From an uncultured Gammaproteobacteria bacterium (GTDB lineage: Bacteria; Pseudomonadota; Gammaproteobacteria; Pseudomonadales; Pseudohongiellaceae), in the NCBI GenBank assembly GCA_903853385.1, contig CAINTJ010000027.1, forward strand, positions 1 to 64,000: a stretch of DNA of 64,000 nt, read 5' to 3'. Positions within the stretch are counted from its first letter, which is position 1. Each line of letters begins with the position of its first letter. Under the pieces are notes generated by a model. It was not told where the DNA came from and made no database searches. It saw nothing but the letters and a program-made list of their open reading frames with translations. Below, piece by piece: positions 6,768 through 39,323 of this stretch. Both the position numbers and the translations under genes were made by a program.

Positions 6768-8387
6768 ATGAAATTGAAGTTATTGGCAGCAGCCGTGCTG
6801 TTGGCAGCCATGAATTTGGCGCAGGCTGCTAACACCAGCCTGGCCCTGCTGGTCAGCAATGGCCAGAAAGCCGAAGCCTTGCAACAGATCGCCGCTGGTA
6901 CAGATGTAAATGCGGTGCGTACTGATGGCTCTTCGGCGCTGCTCTATGCCGCTTATCAGGGCGATGCCGAACTGGTGAAAGCGCTGCTCGACAAAGGTGC
7001 CAATCCCAATTTACGCAATGAGTATGGTGCGTTTGCGTTGTCTGAAGCCGTGCAGCAAGGTTCACAACCAATAGTTGACATGCTGCTGTCCCACAACGCC
7101 GATGCCAATCTGGGCAATGTTGAAAGTGAAACTGCCTTGATGGTGGCCGCACGCAGTGGCAACCTGGCAGCAGCACAAGCACTGCTGAAAGCCGGCGCCA
7201 AGGTTAATGCCAAAGAAAACTGGGGAGGCCAGACCGCCGTCATGTGGGCAGCCGCGCAAAGCCAGACTGAAATGCTGAAACTGCTGATCAAGAACGGCGC
7301 CGACGTGAACATGCAAGGCGCCATGCGGCTGTGGGATCGCCGTACCTTGAGTGAGCCGCGCCCAAAAGACATGAACAAAGGCGGTCTCACTGCCCTGCTT
7401 TATGCAAGCCGTGAAGGCTGCACAGACTGCGTGAAAATTCTCAAGGACGCTGGTGCCGATTTCAATGCCACTGATCCCGACCGCACCGGGCCGCTTAATA
7501 TGGCACTTATGAACCAGCATTTCGAAACAGCGATGGCGCTGCTCAATGCCGGCGCCGATGTTAACCAGATTGATCTGTTCGGCCGCGCACCGCTGTTCAA
7601 TGCGCTGGATCTCAATACTTTGCCGACTGGTGGCAGACCTGACATTCCATCCGAAGACAAAGTCTCTGGCTACGATGTCGCGAAAGTGTTGCTGGAAAAA
7701 GGCGCCAATCCCAACCAGCAATTGAAACTACGCCCCCCCTATCGCAATGCCATCTTTGATCGCGGTGCCGACAACAGCCTGTCAGAAGGTGCCACTCCAT
7801 TGATACGCGCAGCCCGCGCAGCCGATAACGCCAGTGTGAAATTGCTGCTTGAACACGGTGCGCTGATTGACCTGCCCAATGCCCGCGGCCACACACCGCT
7901 GCTGGTGGTATCCGGCATCGACTGGGCCGCTGAACCAACCCGTGGCCGCTTCAAGACCCAGGAAGCCAGCATAGAGACCCTCAAAATCCTGCTGGAACAT
8001 GGCGCCAATCTCAATGCCATTACCGGTGACCCGGCCCGACGTCCCAAAACCGTCATCACTGATACTGAACGCGGCGCCGGATTGCAACCCGCCATTCGTG
8101 GTGCAGCATTAACCGACGGCCAGAATGCGCTGCATGCCGCCGCCAAGGTTGGCTGGAGCAAGATCACCAAATTCCTGATCGAAAAAGGCATCAGGCAACA
8201 AGTAAAGGATTCTGCCGGACGCACTCCATTCGATCTGGCGATGGGCCGCTATCCCGCCACTTTTCTGCAACCTCCGCCACAGCCGATTGTGGAAACCGCC
8301 AAAATTTTGCAGGAGGAATGCCAGAAGACCGACAACTGCCAGATCACCAACCCGGTTGATTTCAGCAACCCAGCTGCTATCAAATAA
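6768..8387 (+). CDS. Secreted ankyrin-repeat protein
   Basis: A 539-residue protein with a Sec signal (KLKLLAAAVLLAAM, cleavage near AQAAN at 21) followed by roughly ten ankyrin repeats that fill nearly the whole chain, seen as repeated ALLYAA, LLDKGANPN and LLEHGA units spaced about 33 residues. Some repeats carry insertions, for example near residues 190-205 and 285-330. Ankyrin stacks bind proteins, so this is likely a periplasmic partner or scaffold for the DUF1592/DUF1552 pair. AAGGGGAG precedes the ATG, 27 bases after the previous stop. The strong terminator at 8405 closes the operon behind it. Confidence 0.9.
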   Translation: MKLKLLAAAVLLAAMNLAQAANTSLALLVSNGQKAEALQQIAAGTDVNAVRTDGSSALLYAAYQGDAELVKALLDKGANPNLRNEYGAFALSEAVQQGSQPIVDMLLSHNADANLGNVESETALMVAARSGNLAAAQALLKAGAKVNAKENWGGQTAVMWAAAQSQTEMLKLLIKNGADVNMQGAMRLWDRRTLSEPRPKDMNKGGLTALLYASREGCTDCVKILKDAGADFNATDPDRTGPLNMALMNQHFETAMALLNAGADVNQIDLFGRAPLFNALDLNTLPTGGRPDIPSEDKVSGYDVAKVLLEKGANPNQQLKLRPPYRNAIFDRGADNSLSEGATPLIRAARAADNASVKLLLEHGALIDLPNARGHTPLLVVSGIDWAAEPTRGRFKTQEASIETLKILLEHGANLNAITGDPARRPKTVITDTERGAGLQPAIRGAALTDGQNALHAAAKVGWSKITKFLIEKGIRQQVKDSAGRTPFDLAMGRYPATFLQPPPQPIVETAKILQEECQKTDNCQITNPVDFSNPAAIK

Positions 8388-31605: not shown

Positions 31606-31697
31606 GCTGCCCGCACGGGCAGCAATATTGCAGCAAGCTCCCCTCTTGCATGCAATTTTGATTGGCCGGTGTACACAAGTACACCGGCCCTTTTTTT
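31606..31697 (+). terminator. Double hairpin terminator after the porin gene
   Basis: A first hairpin, GCTGCCCG / CGGGCAGC at 31606-31623, lacks a T run. A second, GGCCGGTGTAC (31664-31674) and GTACACCGGCC (31679-31689) with a 4-base loop, is followed by seven T and is a strong terminator. Together they end the porin transcript before the convergent chrR-like gene. Confidence 0.88.
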
Positions 31698-31734: not shown

Positions 31735-32430
31735 TCAAGCGGCCGTTTGATGACTTGGCGTACCGAGGTTGAATAGATACAAGCCGAAGCGCAGCAGCCA
31801 GTTACTTAGCACGATAGGCGCATCCAGCGTCGACAGACACAAACAGTCCTGGTCCTGGGAGGCTACCGGCTTATGGGTTTCGCCATTGGTTCTGACTATG
31901 AAATCACCAACTTCATATTTGTCCTCGTGATCTGAGAAGCTGCCTTTGAGGATCACGGTTATTTCATCGCCCTTATGCTGATGGTGTGGCACATGACCAC
32001 CAGCCTTGATGCAAAACAGTGAAGTTTCACGCTGCTTGTCGCCGACATTCAGTCGGGACACGCGAAAATTGCTGCCGATCCTGCGCCAATTGAGTCGTTC
32101 CAGATTTCCGCTGGTAAGTTTGTTGACTGCTTTGGGAAGAATTGAAACTGATGGTTCGGCTTGTACTGGGGAGATCGGGCTTTGCGGCGAGGCTTGAATG
32201 CGTGCAAGCAATTTCTCCAGCGCGGCTTTTTCAACTTTCACAGGTTGCTGCTGCATGAAAAGCTCTGCCCCCAACTCAGTCAGCTCACCAATTTTCAGTC
32301 GGCACAGCGGGCAATAGTGAAGATGGGTGGCTACACACAAAGCTTGTGAAGCCGGTAGGCAGCCAGCTGCATAATCAGTGAGAAAACGGGCATCGGGGTG
32401 ATATTTGACCATGGGAGTATGCTTTTGCAT
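31735..32430 (-). CDS. ChrR-type zinc anti-sigma factor with cupin domain
   Basis: A 231-residue anti-sigma factor of the ChrR family, which holds an ECF sigma factor inactive until singlet oxygen or related stress. The N-terminal anti-sigma domain has the zinc motif HLHYCPLC (H-x3-C-x2-C, near 37-44); the C-terminal cupin domain has HHQHKGDEITVILKG, DKYEVGDF and ETHKP, which supply a second metal site. The last 25 residues form a hydrophobic tail (NWLLRFGLYLFNLG). It follows the sigma gene by 3 bases and is co-transcribed with it. Confidence 0.88.
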   Translation of the reverse strand: MQKHTPMVKYHPDARFLTDYAAGCLPASQALCVATHLHYCPLCRLKIGELTELGAELFMQQQPVKVEKAALEKLLARIQASPQSPISPVQAEPSVSILPKAVNKLTSGNLERLNWRRIGSNFRVSRLNVGDKQRETSLFCIKAGGHVPHHQHKGDEITVILKGSFSDHEDKYEVGDFIVRTNGETHKPVASQDQDCLCLSTLDAPIVLSNWLLRFGLYLFNLGTPSHQTAA

Positions 32431-32433
32431 GAA

Positions 32434-33093
32434 TCAGCGATCCACAACCAGTTTGAGTTTGTTGAGAGCCAGTCTGACCCTGGATTTGACGGTTCCCAGT
32501 GGCAACTTCAGTTCGGCGGCCACTTCGGCATGGGATTTGTCTTCCAAATAAACCTTGGAAAGTACTTCTGTTTGTTCGATCGGCAGCAACTTCAGTGATT
32601 CATGAATCTGCTTGCGGCTGCGTTGCATGGCCAGCTGATTGAAAACATCACTGTTTTCGTCTTCAAACCAGATATCATCCAGTGCGATCTCATCGTCATC
32701 GCCATCCTGGTACAGCTGCACGTTGTTGATCACATGGCGGGCCTGCTTGCGCAGCAGGTCTATCCTCATGTTACGCGCGATCGTGAAAATCCAAGTGCTG
32801 GGACTGGCCAGCCTGGCATCAAAACTGGCGGCCTTGGTCCACACCTTCAGCATGGTTTCCTGCAGTAGTTCTTCAGCAAAGGGTTCCGCCTGTTCCAGTC
32901 CAGGAATCTTGTAGGCAAAGGATTTGATCATGGGTGAAAAATGCTCAAACAACTCACGGAAGGCTTTGACATCCTGGGTTGACGCTACTTTTTCCAGACA
33001 AATAACCCAGTACTGCCCCCTTTCGTCTGAGGGAGCGGCCGGTTGCTGATCGTCGGATTCGTAATCCATCGCTTTGAGTGAGCCTGTGCGCAT
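32434..33093 (-). CDS. ECF sigma factor, RpoE/ChrR-partner type (ECF11-like)
   Basis: A 219-residue group IV sigma factor. Region 2 shows LFEHFSPMIKSFAYKI and the ELLQETMLKVWTKAASFD block with the -10 recognition helix STWIFTIARNMRIDLLRK; region 4 has VLSKVYLEDKSHAEVAAELKLPLGTVKSRVRLAL, a helix-turn-helix. Its partner downstream is ChrR-like, which marks it as a photooxidative-stress sigma. The N-terminus may begin at the ATG at 33093 or at 33069; the first has no clear ribosome site. A promoter matching its own consensus precedes it, so it is probably autoregulated. Confidence 0.9.
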   Translation of the reverse strand: MRTGSLKAMDYESDDQQPAAPSDERGQYWVICLEKVASTQDVKAFRELFEHFSPMIKSFAYKIPGLEQAEPFAEELLQETMLKVWTKAASFDARLASPSTWIFTIARNMRIDLLRKQARHVINNVQLYQDGDDDEIALDDIWFEDENSDVFNQLAMQRSRKQIHESLKLLPIEQTEVLSKVYLEDKSHAEVAAELKLPLGTVKSRVRLALNKLKLVVDR

Positions 33094-33117
33094 GAGTGGT
33101 ATCCATTGGCTTTGGCG

Positions 33118-33147
33118 TTTGTACGCTACATTGAAGCCAACGGATCA
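33118..33147 (-). promoter_or_regulatory. Candidate ECF (RpoE-type) promoter of the sigma/chrR operon
   Basis: Read leftward, TGATCC (33147-33142) is followed after exactly 18 bases by TACAAA (33123-33118). The -35 hexamer equals the Rhodobacter RpoE consensus TGATCC and the spacing matches its N18; the -10 differs from TAAGA. It lies about 25 bases before the sigma start, supporting autoregulation. Confidence 0.6.
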
Positions 33148-33180
33148 ATTACAAAGAATATAGGCTGATTGTCTCCATGG

Positions 33181-33210
33181 TAATCCAGACTCTCACAATA
33201 TACGTAAAAG
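33181..33210 (+). promoter_or_regulatory. Candidate ECF (RpoE-type) promoter of the rightward cluster
   Basis: TAATCC (33181-33186), 18 bases and TAAAAG (33205-33210) resemble TGATCC-N18-TAAGA on the opposite strand to the sigma promoter. It lies about 27 bases before the preferred start at 33237. Together the two elements imply that one sigma factor drives both transcripts. Confidence 0.5.
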
Positions 33211-33236
33211 CTCCACTAATGGTACAGGATGATGGT

Positions 33237-33722
33237 ATGGCGGATGAATTGGCGGCAACAAGTGCAGAGTTGTTACAGGCAACACCACAGCGTGTGCGTG
33301 GCCAATTGCTATTGCAACAGCTCAGGACTTTTTACGAAGAATTCAGGGCAGACCGGCTTGAACAGCTTGATTGCCTGTATACCGCAGATGTGGAGTTCCG
33401 CGATCCTGTGCATACACTGACAGGCAGTCTGGCTCTCAAGCATTATCTGCGCAAGATGGGTACTAACCTGCAGCATTACCATATCCGGTATCTTGACGAG
33501 GCCAGCTCCAGCAACTCTGCCTACCTCAGCTGGGAAATGGATTACTCGCATCCGCAGCTCAACGGTGGCCAACTGATAATGGTGCGCGGGATCACCCATT
33601 TGAAATTCACCGACAAAGTGTACTATCACGAAGATTGCTACGACATGGGTGCGCTGGTATATGAACATGTGCCCTTGCTGGGTTTTGCCACACGTAAACT
33701 CAAGCAAAGGCTGGCCAGGTAA
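33237..33722 (+). CDS. NTF2/SnoaL-like protein
   Basis: A 161-residue single-domain protein with the cone-shaped NTF2/SnoaL-like fold signature: LRTFYEEFRADRLEQLDCLYTADVEFRDPVHTLTG followed by SWEMDYSHPQLNGGQL. Such domains bind small ligands or catalyse isomerisation; this family often sits beside ChrR/ECF and amine-oxidase-type genes. AGGA at 33226-33229 lies 7 bases before the ATG at 33237, and the upstream candidate promoter would overlap the longer frame at 33177, so the short start is chosen. First gene of a four-gene run. Confidence 0.75.
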   Translation: MADELAATSAELLQATPQRVRGQLLLQQLRTFYEEFRADRLEQLDCLYTADVEFRDPVHTLTGSLALKHYLRKMGTNLQHYHIRYLDEASSSNSAYLSWEMDYSHPQLNGGQLIMVRGITHLKFTDKVYYHEDCYDMGALVYEHVPLLGFATRKLKQRLAR

Positions 33723-33770: not shown

Positions 33771-35078
33771 ATGAAAATCGCAGTAATTGGCAGCGGCATA
33801 GCAGGCATGGCTGCAGCCCATTTCCTGACAAAGCAGCCAGGACATGAAGTCATGCTGTTCGAGGCTGCGGACCGCCTGGGCGGACACACGGCAACGGTCG
33901 ATGTTGATGACGATGGCATAACCCGACAAATTGATACCGGTTTTATTGTATTCAATGACTGGACCTACCCGCACTTTATCGCCCTGCTGCAGGAACTTGG
34001 CATTGAATCGCAACCTTCCAGCATGAGCTTCAGTGTGAGCGACGCCATCAGCGGTCTTGAATATGCGGGCACCAGTATCAATACCCTGTTTGCCCAACGC
34101 CGCAACCTGTTTTCGCCGCGCTTCTTGCGACTGGCAAATGATATTGTACGATTCAATCGCACCGTAGAACGGGATCTGGCTGCCAATCCGTCGCTGGCAC
34201 AGGTCACGCTTGGCCAGTACTTGCAGGATTACCATTATTCCAAAGAGTTCTGTGACTACTATCTGATGCCGATGGGCGCTGCCATCTGGTCTTCCCCTAA
34301 TCAACAGATGTCAGGGTTCCCGCTGCATTTCTTCGTACAGTTCTTTCGCAACCATGGTTTATTGAATTTTACCCACCGGCCCCAATGGCGCGTGATTACC
34401 GGCGGTTCGCGCCAATACATAGCCCCGCTCACCCGCGCCTACCGCAACAACATCAGACTCTCTACCCCTGTGGTTGCGCTACGTCGCTATTTGCTGCCAA
34501 ACGGCAAACCCCAAGTAGGCATTCGCACTGCGCGCGGTGAAGAATGTTTTGATCATGTGATCCTGGCTTGTCATAGTGACCAGGCACTCAAATTGCTGAG
34601 CGACCCCTCCCCGGCCGAACGGCAAATTCTTGGCGCGATCCCCTACCAACGCAACGAAGTAGTATTGCATACAGATACTGCACTGCTGCCAAAGCTGCGG
34701 CGTACCTGGTCAAGTTGGAATGTAAGTCTTGGCCACGGCAACGGCGACGTACCGGCATTGACTTACAACATGAACATCCTGCAACAACTGCAAAGCCGGC
34801 ATACCTGGTGTGTGACGCTCAATCAAACCGCCTTGATCAGGCAAGAATGCATCAAAGCTGTTTTTCATTATGACCACCCGATGTTCACTCTGGCGGGCGT
34901 CAGGGCTCAACAACGCTGGCAGGAAATCAATGGCATAGGTAATACCTGGTTTTGCGGCGCCTGGTGGCGCAACGGTTTTCATGAAGACGGGGTATGGAGT
35001 GCCCGTCGAGTTGCGGATCAGTTGTTGCTGCAGCTCAACGATGTAGAGAACTGCTCAGCGTTGGCTATTGCATCATGA
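33771..35078 (+). CDS. FAD-dependent amine-oxidase-like oxidoreductase
   Basis: A 435-residue flavoprotein that begins with the FAD-binding beta-alpha-beta motif KIAVIGSGIAGMAAAHFL, followed by GHEVMLFEAADRLGGHTATV and, near the C-terminus, WFCGAWWRNGFHEDGVWSA, the second FAD-binding block. This NAD(P)/FAD-binding family is commonly found next to DUF1365 and cyclopropane-synthase genes. It probably oxidises or desaturates a lipid or isoprenoid, but this is inference. The ATG at 33771 starts the flavin motif; a GTG at 33762 is a possible alternative. The stop overlaps the next start by four bases. Confidence 0.85.
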   Translation: MKIAVIGSGIAGMAAAHFLTKQPGHEVMLFEAADRLGGHTATVDVDDDGITRQIDTGFIVFNDWTYPHFIALLQELGIESQPSSMSFSVSDAISGLEYAGTSINTLFAQRRNLFSPRFLRLANDIVRFNRTVERDLAANPSLAQVTLGQYLQDYHYSKEFCDYYLMPMGAAIWSSPNQQMSGFPLHFFVQFFRNHGLLNFTHRPQWRVITGGSRQYIAPLTRAYRNNIRLSTPVVALRRYLLPNGKPQVGIRTARGEECFDHVILACHSDQALKLLSDPSPAERQILGAIPYQRNEVVLHTDTALLPKLRRTWSSWNVSLGHGNGDVPALTYNMNILQQLQSRHTWCVTLNQTALIRQECIKAVFHYDHPMFTLAGVRAQQRWQEINGIGNTWFCGAWWRNGFHEDGVWSARRVADQLLLQLNDVENCSALAIAS

Positions 35079-35845
35079 AGCCGGCACTGCAACCCAGCGG
35101 CGTCTACGAAGGCGTGGTCACGCACAAGCGCTTCCAGCCGCGCTCACACAGCTTCAGCTACAAGGTGGCGATGGTGTACCTTGATCTTGACGAATTGCCG
35201 GCCTTGTTCAGCCAAAGCCCCTGGTGGTCTGTGGAAAAGTGGAATCTCGCGACATTTTTCCGCAGTGACTATCATCAGAAAAGCACCTCGTCATTGAAAC
35301 AAGCCGTGCTTGCCACACTTGAAAACAGTACGGGCCAGGCTTTCCACGGCTGCATATTCATGTTGAGCAACCTGCGCTATTTTGGCTTCATCATCAACCC
35401 GCTAACCCTCTATTACTGCTACGACACTGCCAACAGTTTGCGATTCGTAGTTGCGGAAGTCACCAACACGCCATGGCGCCAACGCTGTCACTATGTGATT
35501 CCGACTACGAACCCCAATGGCACTGCCGCACTTGCATTCGGCAAAACCATGCATGTATCGCCCTTCATGCCCATGGATCTTGACTATCAATGGCACAGTT
35601 CCCCGCCCGGCCCACAGCTTGCGCTGACAATGGCGCTGCAGCAGGAAGGCATTACCATGTTTGCTGCCTCCATGATGATGAATCATGCAGCGCTCACCCG
35701 CACCAGCATGCACAGACTGTTGTGGAAATATCCGATGATGACCCTGCAAATAGCTTTTGGCATTTACTGGCAAGCACTGCGGCTGTGGCTCAAAGGCATG
35801 CCGTTTTATACAAATTCCCCCAAAGTGGACAGGAGTGATCCATGA
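35075..35845 (+). CDS. DUF1365 family protein
   Basis: A 256-residue protein of the DUF1365 family: the PSGVYEGVVTHKRFQPRSHSFSYKVAMVYLDLDEL start, the FGFIINPLTLYYCYD and VTNTPWRQRCHYVI blocks and PFMPMDLDYQW are all characteristic. A role in fatty acid or lipid modification is supposed only from its constant partners, the FAD enzyme and the cyclopropane-synthase-like enzyme. Both ends overlap neighbours (ATGA), so the three genes are translationally coupled. Confidence 0.9.
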   Translation: MKPALQPSGVYEGVVTHKRFQPRSHSFSYKVAMVYLDLDELPALFSQSPWWSVEKWNLATFFRSDYHQKSTSSLKQAVLATLENSTGQAFHGCIFMLSNLRYFGFIINPLTLYYCYDTANSLRFVVAEVTNTPWRQRCHYVIPTTNPNGTAALAFGKTMHVSPFMPMDLDYQWHSSPPGPQLALTMALQQEGITMFAASMMMNHAALTRTSMHRLLWKYPMMTLQIAFGIYWQALRLWLKGMPFYTNSPKVDRSDP

Positions 35846-37098
35846 AGTTGACCAATCTCGATTCGGCTTGTTCACTCAGTAACAATAAAAATTCGCAAAG
35901 TGCGCAGTGGGCACGCAAAGCCGTGCGGGCCTTGTTGGCAAAAATTACCCACGGCAGCCTGACACTGGAAGAAGCTGGCCAGGTACATCACTTCGGTGAA
36001 GATCGTCAGCACGCCCATCTGAAGGCGACCATTGAGGTGAAAGACCCTGCCGCCTACCTCATGCTATTGCGCAATGGCGACATCGGTGCCGGTGAAGCCT
36101 ACATGCACGGGCTGTGGGATTCGCCTGGATTGCTGGAAGTCATCCGTGTGATCGTGAGCAATATGGCCGTTTTACAGGACATGCAAGGGTCGCGCTGGCA
36201 ACAATTGGTACTCAAAGGGTTCCATTGGTTGCGGCGCAACAGTCGTGCAGGATCCCAACGCAATATCGCTGCCCACTATGACCTCAGCAACGATTTCTTC
36301 CGTTTGTTTCTCGATGACAGCATGGCTTACTCGGCCGGTATTTTCGCGAATGCCAGCACTACGCTCGAGCAAGCATCGCTTGCCAAGTTTGAACGGATCT
36401 GTTCCCAACTCGAACTGCAAGCCTCGGATCATTTACTGGAAATAGGTACTGGCTGGGGTGGTTTAGCCATCCATGCGGCCAAACATTTCGGCTGCAAGGT
36501 AACCACCACCACCTTGTCGCACCAGCAATTCTGTTATGCACAAAACTGGGTAGAGCGTGAAGGTTTGGCCGGGCGCATTACAGTTTTGCAGAAGGATTAT
36601 CGTGATTTGCAAGGGTGCTTTGACAAACTGGTGTCAGTGGAAATGATTGAAGCGGTGGGTGCTGACTATTACCCGCGCTATTTCAAACAATGTTCGGATT
36701 TGTTGAAACCCCAAGGCCTGATGCTGATCCAGGCCATCACCATTTCCGACCAGCGCTACCAGCAGTCTGTGCATAGCGCCGATTTCATCAAACGCTATAT
36801 CTTCCCCGGCGGTCAGTTGCCGTGCAACAGCGAAATCACCCGCCAGGTTGCTTCACATACCGACATGCAACTGGTCGACCTCAAAGATATAACCCTCGAC
36901 TATGCCCTTACCTTGCAGGCCTGGCGCGGCCGCTTCCATGACAAGCTGGCCTCGGTTCGCGAGCTCGGCTGCGACGAAACTTTCATTCGCATGTGGCGCT
37001 ATTACCTGTGTTTTTGTGAAGGGGGTTTTCGTGAGCGGGCAATCCACACGGCCCAGTATTTGCTGGCCAAACCCGGATACCGCCCCCGGCTGCCGTGA
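35842..37098 (+). CDS. Cyclopropane-fatty-acyl-phospholipid synthase-like SAM methyltransferase
   Basis: A 418-residue methyltransferase of the CFA synthase family, which adds a methylene or methyl group from S-adenosylmethionine to the double bond of membrane phospholipid acyl chains. The SAM motif HLLEIGTGWGGLAIHAA, the DYRDLQGCFDKLVSVEMIEAVG block and the GDIGAGEAYMHGLWD N-terminal sequence are clear. In the related Rhodobacter regulon a CFA-like methyltransferase acts on lipids under singlet oxygen stress. AGGAG at 35831-35835 lies 6 bases before the ATG. It ends the lipid cluster; 123 bases separate it from the carbonic anhydrase. Confidence 0.9.
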   Translation: MKLTNLDSACSLSNNKNSQSAQWARKAVRALLAKITHGSLTLEEAGQVHHFGEDRQHAHLKATIEVKDPAAYLMLLRNGDIGAGEAYMHGLWDSPGLLEVIRVIVSNMAVLQDMQGSRWQQLVLKGFHWLRRNSRAGSQRNIAAHYDLSNDFFRLFLDDSMAYSAGIFANASTTLEQASLAKFERICSQLELQASDHLLEIGTGWGGLAIHAAKHFGCKVTTTTLSHQQFCYAQNWVEREGLAGRITVLQKDYRDLQGCFDKLVSVEMIEAVGADYYPRYFKQCSDLLKPQGLMLIQAITISDQRYQQSVHSADFIKRYIFPGGQLPCNSEITRQVASHTDMQLVDLKDITLDYALTLQAWRGRFHDKLASVRELGCDETFIRMWRYYLCFCEGGFRERAIHTAQYLLAKPGYRPRLP

Positions 37099-37221: not shown

Positions 37222-37848
37222 ATGCAGCACCTTATTGAAGGCGTACATTATTTCCAGAACGTCGGTTTCAAACAGCAAAAGGAATTATTCGAGCGCCTGG
37301 CCGAGGGTCAAACCCCCCAGGTTTGCTTTATCACTTGCTCCGACTCCCGCATTGATCCCAACCTGATCACCAATGCCAAGCCCGGCCAGCTTTTCATAGT
37401 CCGCAACCCGGGCAATGTGGTCCCTTGTTACGGCACCGCCAACAACAGTGCGATGGCCGCTGTCGAATTCGCAGTGGCCATGCTGGGCGTCAAGGACATT
37501 ATTGTCTGCGGTCACACCCACTGCGGCGCCATTTCCGGCCTGTTCCAGCCCGAGAAAATTGCCAACCTCCGCTCGCTGAAAGAATGGCTGATTCACTGCG
37601 ATTCCACTCTCGAAATCATCAAGGATCATTACAGCCACCTGCACGGCGATGATCTCTACACCGTGGCCTCTGAAGAAAATGTGCTGGTGCAGCTTGAACA
37701 TCTGCGCTCACTGCCGGTAATCGCCAGCCGCTTGACTCGAGGTCTGATCAATTTGCATGCCTGGATGTACAAGATCGAAACTGGCGAAATGTTTGTATAC
37801 GAAAGCACCGAATCCCAGTTCAAGAAAATGCAGGCCAACACGCTGTGA
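37222..37848 (+). CDS. Beta-class carbonic anhydrase
   Basis: A 208-residue beta-carbonic anhydrase that interconverts CO2 and bicarbonate. The zinc ligands and catalytic dyad are present: C39 in ITCSDSRIDP with D41 and R43, and H98/C101 in CGHTHCGAI. AAGGA lies 9 bases before the ATG. The stop TGA overlaps the GTG start of the SulP permease, coupling hydration of CO2 to anion transport. Confidence 0.95.
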   Translation: MQHLIEGVHYFQNVGFKQQKELFERLAEGQTPQVCFITCSDSRIDPNLITNAKPGQLFIVRNPGNVVPCYGTANNSAMAAVEFAVAMLGVKDIIVCGHTHCGAISGLFQPEKIANLRSLKEWLIHCDSTLEIIKDHYSHLHGDDLYTVASEENVLVQLEHLRSLPVIASRLTRGLINLHAWMYKIETGEMFVYESTESQFKKMQANTL

Positions 37849-39323
37849 TTGCCACGCTGCGCCGCGACCTGCCTGCTTCACTTGTCGTTTTCCTGGTCGC
37901 AGTTCCGCTCTCACTGGGTATAGCACTGGCTTCAGGGGCACCAATCGTGGCTGGCTTGATTGGCGCCATGGTGGGTGGCATCGTCACCGGCCTGCTGGCC
38001 GGTTCACCCTTGCAGGTATCAGGCCCTGCTGCCGGTCTGACCGTGGTAGTTGCCGGCTTCATCAACCATTTTGGCTGGCCCACCATGTGCCTGATTACTG
38101 CCTGTGCCGGAGTTTTGCAGTGTGTGATGGGCTATTTCAAAGTCGCACGCGGCGCCTTGATGATTGCTCCCTCGGTTGTGCATGGCATGCTGGCCGGCAT
38201 CGGCATTACGATTGTTATGGCGCAAATTCATGTGGTGATGGGTGGTTCACCACTGAGCTCTCCCGTCGCCAACCTGCTGGCGCTGCCCGAACGCATCGGT
38301 GCGATTAATCTGTCTGCCGCCATGCTGGGAGCGCTAACCATCCTGATACTGGTGGTCGGGAAAAAAATAACTAGTGGGGCGTTGAAAGTGATACCTGCGG
38401 CACTGGTGGCAGTTGCAGCAGCAACTGTTGTTTCAGTGCTGATGAAAGCCGATGTTGCCCGTGTCGATCTGCCAGACAGCTTCAGCCTTACCCCCATGAC
38501 ATTACCGACTGAGTGGGGTGCTTTTGCCATTGCCATCCTGACCGTGGCGTTGATTGCCAGTATTGAATCCCTACTCTGCGCTGTGGCGACTGACAAACTC
38601 CACAGCGGCGTGCGTTCGGACCTGGACAAGGAATTGTCCGCGCAAGGAGTCGGCAATTTTGTGTCTGGCCTGTTGGGAGGGCTGCCGGTAACCGGGGTGA
38701 TCGTGCGTTCATCTGCCAATATTACTGCCAATGCCGCTACTCGCTGGTCAGGTGTCATGCACGGACTATGGGTGCTGGTGTTCACGTTTTTTTTCAGCCG
38801 CATGATTGAAACCATACCACTGTCAGTACTGGCGGGCTTGCTGGTTTACACAGGTGTCAATCTGGTGGATCTGCAGCAGATCCACGAATTGAAAAAACAT
38901 AAAGAAGCGCTGGTGTTTTTCGTCACGCTCGCAGGCGTGCTTGTGATCAACCTGCTGGCTGGTGTTGGTATCGGCTTGGCCATGTCGACTTTCTTCGTGT
39001 TGCAACGCTTGTCACGTACTGAAATTCACTGTGAACAACGCGATGGCAACTGGCATGTGGTCATTGATGGCAGCCTGACTTTCGCCTCTGTGCCTAAACT
39101 TGCCAGTGAGCTGGCCAAGTTACCAGCCGGTTCAACGGTGTTGCTGGATCTGGCTGCAGATTTCATTGATCACGCGGCTTTTGAAGCCCTGCATGGCTGG
39201 CGTCTGAATTACGAAAAAGCTGGCGGCAAAGTTGATATAGATGAGGCCCATGAAGTGTGGTATCACCCGGCCAGCCAGGGTAAACCGCGCCTGCATAAAC
39301 TGCCCAAAAGCCGCAAGCGCTAA
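37845..39323 (+). CDS. SulP-family anion permease, probable bicarbonate transporter
   Basis: A 492-residue SLC26/SulP transporter with about 11-12 membrane segments, the GSPLQVSGPAAGLTVVVAGF signature near 45-64, GLLGGLPVTGVIVRSSANI near 270, and a C-terminal cytoplasmic STAS domain (about 395-475, VIDGSLTFASVPKLASELAKLP). Coupling by a GTGA overlap to a carbonic anhydrase suggests that it imports bicarbonate (BicA-like) rather than sulfate. Start is GTG, with no separate ribosome site; translation likely depends on the upstream gene. Confidence 0.88.
   Translation: MIATLRRDLPASLVVFLVAVPLSLGIALASGAPIVAGLIGAMVGGIVTGLLAGSPLQVSGPAAGLTVVVAGFINHFGWPTMCLITACAGVLQCVMGYFKVARGALMIAPSVVHGMLAGIGITIVMAQIHVVMGGSPLSSPVANLLALPERIGAINLSAAMLGALTILILVVGKKITSGALKVIPAALVAVAAATVVSVLMKADVARVDLPDSFSLTPMTLPTEWGAFAIAILTVALIASIESLLCAVATDKLHSGVRSDLDKELSAQGVGNFVSGLLGGLPVTGVIVRSSANITANAATRWSGVMHGLWVLVFTFFFSRMIETIPLSVLAGLLVYTGVNLVDLQQIHELKKHKEALVFFVTLAGVLVINLLAGVGIGLAMSTFFVLQRLSRTEIHCEQRDGNWHVVIDGSLTFASVPKLASELAKLPAGSTVLLDLAADFIDHAAFEALHGWRLNYEKAGGKVDIDEAHEVWYHPASQGKPRLHKLPKSRKR

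Follow-up and report, generated by a model that had tools for sequence, protein, structure and literature searches.

Introduction

The closest described relatives of the locus analysed here are RpoE/ChrR-type (ECF11) systems, for which the following promoter forms have been published: TGATCC(N15)GCGTA in Rhodobacter sphaeroides (PMC5036791), TGATCC-N16-CGTA as the consensus for PSPTO_1043 of Pseudomonas syringae (PMC5507510), TGATC-N16-18-CGTAW in Vibrio cholerae (PMC5241685), and sites of the TGATCC-N16-CGTA form in Shewanella oneidensis RpoE2, with mapped transcript starts for rpoE2 and pgpD (PMC4336711). According to a review, the ECF11 core regulon includes rpoE-chrR together with furan-fatty-acid genes (PMC6852236). 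In R. sphaeroides, UfaM (RSP2144), UfaD (RSP1091) and the DUF1365 protein UfaO (RSP1090) are described as converting cis-vaccenate into a methylated furan fatty acid (PMC7380195), and in Stenotrophomonas maltophilia RNA-seq showed sigma dependence of a divergent cluster with a presumed role in membrane-lipid modification (PMC11832516).

The locus studied here lies in a 64,000-nucleotide stretch of DNA, referred to as the window. With RpoE/ChrR and RSP1091-1087 of R. sphaeroides it shares the sigma factor, a zinc/cupin ChrR, TGATCC-N16-CGTA promoters and furan-fatty-acid targets; ufaM (RSP2144), however, lies outside the RSP1091-1087 operon in that organism, whereas ufaD-, ufaO- and ufaM-like genes form one operon here, which is led by a SnoaL-like gene and has no SDR gene. 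The rpoEc-chrR-chrA and smlt2375-2367 genes of S. maltophilia likewise combine a sigma/chrR operon with a divergent putative membrane-lipid cluster, but with chrA as a third gene and nine divergent genes, compared to sigma factor plus chrR and four lipid-type genes in the window (PMC11832516). Since a sigma-dependent divergent lipid cluster has thus been published for Stenotrophomonas, the divergent promoter layout was already known, and the window locus adds an example of it. The RpoE2 regulon of S. oneidensis, finally, resembles the present one in its TGATCC-N16-CGTA sites and in its targets rpoE2-chrR, ybgA-phrB and a ferrochelatase gene, the latter being the paralogue HemH2 (PMC4336711), while the site described here precedes the only ferrochelatase gene found.

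Results

An ECF11-type sigma factor with its ChrR

The leftward operon of the locus encodes the following two proteins:

32434..33093, minus strand: ECF sigma factor, 219 aa, start at 33093 or at the second Met, 33069
31735..32430, minus strand: ChrR-type zinc anti-sigma factor (PF12973; TIGR02451)

Among solved structures, the best relative of the sigma factor is R. sphaeroides RpoE (2q1z_A, E 2.8e-31), the next one following at 1.3e-12. Position 33093 is a possible start, and the second Met at 33069 is common to five aligned relatives from the genus. The ChrR protein scores 172.2 bits against TIGR02451 (cut-off 124.5), and when its alignment to 2z2s was read by eye, the eight zinc ligands of both zinc sites, as listed in PMC6852236, were all kept. 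With its sigma factor, the adjacent ChrR, a TGATCC-N16-CGTA promoter and promoter-bearing core regulon genes, the locus fits an ECF11 (RpoE/ChrR) system, as judged from sequence.

Several further features were seen around these and related genes. A terminator-like stem of 11 pairs followed by a T-run is located at 31664-31689, after the gene of a TorF-family porin. In the genus relative G008, CGATCC-N16-CGTAAC stands upstream of a TspO gene that adjoins chrR (L233:2074-2101, minus strand). Contig C57 of the genome to which the window belongs (G000) also encodes a free-standing protein in which two stretches resemble the ChrR cupin (L266:4602-5093); its gene was rejected as a target, as just one site there scores at least 12 (14.4) and this site is directed away from the gene.

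Two back-to-back elements in the intergenic gap

The 143-bp gap at 33094-33236 separates the sigma/chrR operon from the rightward lipid operon and contains two predicted promoters:

33120..33147, minus strand: ECF11-type promoter of the sigma/chrR operon (TGATCC 33147-33142, N16, CGTA 33125-33122; score 17.2)
33181..33208, plus strand: ECF11-type promoter of the lipid operon (TAATCC 33181-33186, N16, CGTA 33203-33206; score 15.4)

The sequence-only reading had described these as ECF-type promoters with an identical 18-base spacing, and the letters are indeed as it gave them, with TGATCC, 18 bases and TACAAA on the minus strand and TAATCC, 18 bases and TAAAAG on the plus strand. Its assignment to the ECF type holds as well; because the final two bases of the supposed spacer are CG in both elements, though, the conserved unit is N16-CGTA rather than N18-TA. 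The elements then read TGATCC-N16-CGTACA and TAATCC-N16-CGTAAA, and are better written as T(G/A)ATCC-N16-CGTA, the form of the known ECF11 (RpoE/ChrR-type) promoter.

Scores were computed with a 12-column matrix of 14 published sites from other organisms, comprising all five S. oneidensis rows and nine of the 18 P. syringae rows, hand-picked mostly for closeness to consensus or strong induction; as nine P. syringae rows, TGAgCC and gcATCC sites among them, were omitted and those used are mostly near consensus, the matrix is strict by design. Over all positions and both strands of the window, the two elements rank first and second, with per-position chances of 7e-7 and 2e-6, respectively, under the base composition. 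Next in rank comes a site at 7472 (14.9), which was dropped as it lies inside an ORF. When spacings from 10 to 23 were allowed within the gap, the highest alternative scores were 5.9 for the plus strand and, for the minus strand, 13.1 (N22) and 12.0 (N11). Strict matches to the motif also occur within genes of G000, so that a lone match means little and the elements could in principle resemble ECF promoters by chance; however, none of 3000 dinucleotide shuffles of the gap reached 15.4 on either strand, and together with the conservation and spacing controls below this makes a chance resemblance negligible.

Conservation of the promoter pair among relatives

To relate the elements to their genomic surroundings, we collected upstream regions from two sets of sigma relatives. 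The first set draws on 95 genomes, 67 of which contained a sigma match at E 1e-20, and the best 30 of these 67 loci were taken, including that of the window; a second sample comprised the best 80 of at least 563 confirmed stretches from named loci. Removal of four repeats and of L014, whose upstream stretch has only 81 bases, left 105 regions, which, being the nearest sigma relatives from best-N lists with common ancestry, are neither random nor independent. At a score threshold of 13, chosen after the sites had been seen, a sigma-facing site was present at N16 in 73 of the 105 regions and at N16 or N17 in 79 (best 30 of 67 plus best 80 of at least 563), and absent at either spacing in the other 26; spacings of 8-15 and 18-25 gave a site of that score in at most three of 105 regions on either strand. 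The two window elements share their spacing, which is not constant throughout the relatives, some of whose sigma-facing sites reach the threshold only at N17.

The cluster-facing site was tied to the kind of gene it faces. We classed regions by whether a SnoaL-, FAD- or DUF1365-type gene lies divergently within 520 bases; a cluster-facing N16 site was present in 54 of the 65 regions with such a gene and in none of the 40 without (Fisher 3e-19, a value that overstates independence because the loci are nearest sigma relatives of shared ancestry). The 11 regions lacking it are L056, L059, L062, L086, L094, L096, L112, L115, L119, L123 and L126. Despite this kinship, spacers differ between loci and the tie to the divergent gene is clear. 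Paired sites recur at gamma- and alphaproteobacterial loci. A shared operator, which would call for a constant distance from one -35 element to the other, was considered and dropped, since this distance varies among relatives.

Within the genus, the sequence of the gap has diverged and both elements persist: TAATC(C/T)-N16-CGTA occupies the cluster-facing position in G000, G003, G004, G005, G009 and G010, and G001 has TGATCC there. This retention bears on the possibility that only the sigma-facing element works and the other one is a weak promoter or a relic, with the lipid operon under another regulator or a housekeeping promoter. The cluster-facing -35 reads TAATCC, off the TGATCC consensus, and Pseudomonas phrB and ufaM are described as light-induced under LitR-type regulators (PMC9758184). 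Against this, the cluster-facing element has been kept in all seven genomes amid a diverging gap, and scanning for sigma-70 promoters gave no sigma-70-like hit within the gap; the TAATCC variant is moreover plausible, because the TaATCt site of P. syringae katG is induced by overexpression of the sigma factor of that organism (PMC5507510). We regard a purely sigma-facing function as improbable, and estimate at roughly 0.9 the probability that the gap carries two back-to-back promoters of the adjacently encoded ECF11 sigma factor, one for its own operon and one for the lipid operon. The sequence-only reading had proposed that the sigma factor regulates itself and activates the lipid cluster directly; both are likewise predicted by the sequence of the elements, by the conservation of the paired sites and by their association with the divergent genes.

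The lipid operon and the start of its first gene

The rightward operon has these features:

33224..33229, plus strand: ACAGGA, probable ribosome-binding site for the 33237 start, kept in G001 and G005
33237..33722, plus strand: SnoaL/NTF2-like protein, 161 aa (PF12680)
33771..35078, plus strand: FAD amine-oxidase-like, UfaD-like protein (PF01593; likeness by domain and order to the set in PMC7380195)
35075..35845, plus strand: DUF1365 protein, UfaO-like (PF07103)
35842..37098, plus strand: CMAS-type methyltransferase, UfaM-like (PF02353; below the CFA-synthase cut-offs)

Three in-frame ATGs, at 33177, 33219 and 33237, could open the SnoaL-like gene. The first lies upstream of the promoter, and neither it nor the second is kept in G001 and G005; 33237, to which the start had been moved in the sequence-only reading, is the sole one retained in both, behind the conserved ACAGGA.

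By domain and order (PF01593, PF07103, PF02353), the following three genes match the furan-fatty-acid set UfaD-UfaO-UfaM and probably represent it, an assignment made from domains and order, with sequence matches limited to relatives at alphaproteobacterial ECF11 loci. The same order is shared by relatives whose stretch extends that far. An SDR gene stands between the SnoaL and ufaD genes in G003, G004 and G010, and is absent from that place in G000, G001 and G005. After ufaM, the window carries carbonic anhydrase and SulP transporter genes (37222-39323), as does G001; the pair is absent there in G004, G003, G011 and G041, whose stretches run well past ufaM.

It is conceivable that the promoter pair is read correctly while the operon makes cyclopropane or methyl-branched fatty acids, and that peroxide or some other oxidant, instead of singlet oxygen, serves as the signal. 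The UfaM-like protein scores best on CFA-synthase models, albeit below their cut-offs, and the homologous S. maltophilia operon is reported to make hardly any contribution to singlet-oxygen tolerance (PMC11832516). UfaD-, UfaO- and UfaM-like genes in one operon, however, correspond to the three-enzyme furan set as published (PMC7380195), and we consider this alternative as a whole unlikely, if still a serious competitor. A furan-fatty-acid product remains our preferred assignment.

Candidate sites elsewhere in the genome

In G000, sites precede ybgA-phrB, hemH, an SDR gene and hfq; a lack of the motif near stress genes, which would have counted against the sequence-only reading, was thus not observed. 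A genome-wide motif count by itself is of little use. In G000, 16 of the 18 matches to TGATC-N17-CGTA are covered by an ORF of at least 100 aa, and the SDR site is one of these 16, though what covers it is just the N-terminally extended part of the SDR ORF itself. Across the genus, where 90 strict matches were listed, 70 distinct strict sites were surveyed, of which 18 remained after simple filtering by position; one of the 18 belongs to a sigma gene and several others are probably chance matches. The reversed pattern, with 5 genus matches against 90, was discarded as a control because CTAG, a rare tetranucleotide in many bacteria, is part of it.

The core regulon sites of G000 score 15.4 (lipid operon), 13.4 (ybgA-phrB) and 18.1 (SDR). 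The last of these, TGATCC-N16-CGTATG on contig C1, lies 18 bases before the likely start of the SDR gene. In G001, an SDR gene is preceded by TAATCC-N16-CGTACA (14.3), and as the G000 and G001 stretches share no nucleotide match, the two promoters may have separate origins. With only 39% identity to the SDR in the operon of G004, orthology of the G000 protein to RSP1087 is uncertain. Sites seen in a single genome precede a peroxiredoxin gene in G001, and a second peroxiredoxin gene and a DUF2878 gene in G010.

On contig C95 of G000, TCATCT-N16-CGTACT (11.6) points toward hemH and CGATCC-N16-CGTAAA (13.4) toward ybgA-phrB, so that these two sites stand face to face (L227:2570-2671), as opposed to the back-to-back pair in the window. 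Eight genomes of the genus that have both genes show N16 sites in both directions, with best scores from 8.1 to 18.4; a ninth genome, G006, has both genes and no site pair (7.6 and 1.9). We compared 18 hemH loci from three related genera. Of the 16 in genomes with the sigma factor, 13 reach a score of 10, a threshold chosen after the sites had been seen, toward hemH at N16 or, in genus g3, at N17; the three below it are G008, G011 and G032 (7.9-8.1), and the remaining spacings give at most 2 of the 18 loci. Neither of the two genomes without the sigma factor, G006 (88% complete) and G033 (9.8), reaches 10, a comparison with n = 2, and ChrR was also not found in these two. Upstream of hemH, G033 (L253) carries TGACTC-N17-CGTAAT at the position of TGATCC-N17-CGTAAT in G012; apart from this difference the two elements are identical. 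In a set of 12 hemH loci at greater distance, three score at least 10 toward hemH at N16, little above the two loci that do so at N17. A single ferrochelatase gene was found in 10 of 11 genus genomes and none in G007; as the sole ferrochelatase gene in those ten, hemH is not a spare paralogue of the kind that Shewanella HemH2 represents (PMC4336711, PMC6664582).

In G000 and G005, hfq too is preceded by TGATCC-N16-CGTA, at a distance of 82-85 bases and within sequence that has otherwise diverged (L141:1499-1526 and L185:1500-1527, both minus strand). None of the strict sites of six other genus genomes is near an hfq match: G001 (8 sites), G003 (10), G004 (1), G008 (7), G009 (6) and G010 (18). 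Because of these six genomes, we slightly lowered our estimate for an extended regulon, in which the ECF11 sigma factor would directly control the only ferrochelatase through face-to-face promoters, with transcripts overlapping those of ybgA-phrB, and also hfq in G000 and one relative. We put it forward tentatively, at somewhat less than even odds. In a literature search of titles and abstract beginnings, with few subscription journals covered, we found none that dealt with control by ECF11 of hfq or of a genome's sole ferrochelatase.

Discussion

The arrangement suggests a simple circuit. While ChrR holds the sigma factor, both promoters would be silent or weakly active. Upon a photo-oxidative or peroxide signal, possibly singlet oxygen, the sigma factor would be freed, and its holoenzyme may then transcribe its own sigma/chrR operon leftward, as feedback, from a start predicted at about 33113-33109 (minus strand), and the SnoaL-ufaD-ufaO-ufaM operon rightward from about 33213-33218 (plus strand). 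The products of the latter would probably convert cis-vaccenoyl chains into methylated and furan fatty acids.

For the annotation of the locus, the analysis yields the exact promoter form and one gene start, and it illustrates that a promoter pair read from raw sequence can prove right. The furan-fatty-acid stress circuit is thereby extended to an uncharacterised lineage. If the extended regulon were true, the stress that releases the sigma factor would trigger damage repair and at the same time deplete protoporphyrin IX, from which singlet oxygen arises inside the cell; sensor and source would thus be coupled. Should the sites before the ferrochelatase gene and hfq prove functional, both heme synthesis and control by small RNAs would be linked directly to photo-oxidative stress.
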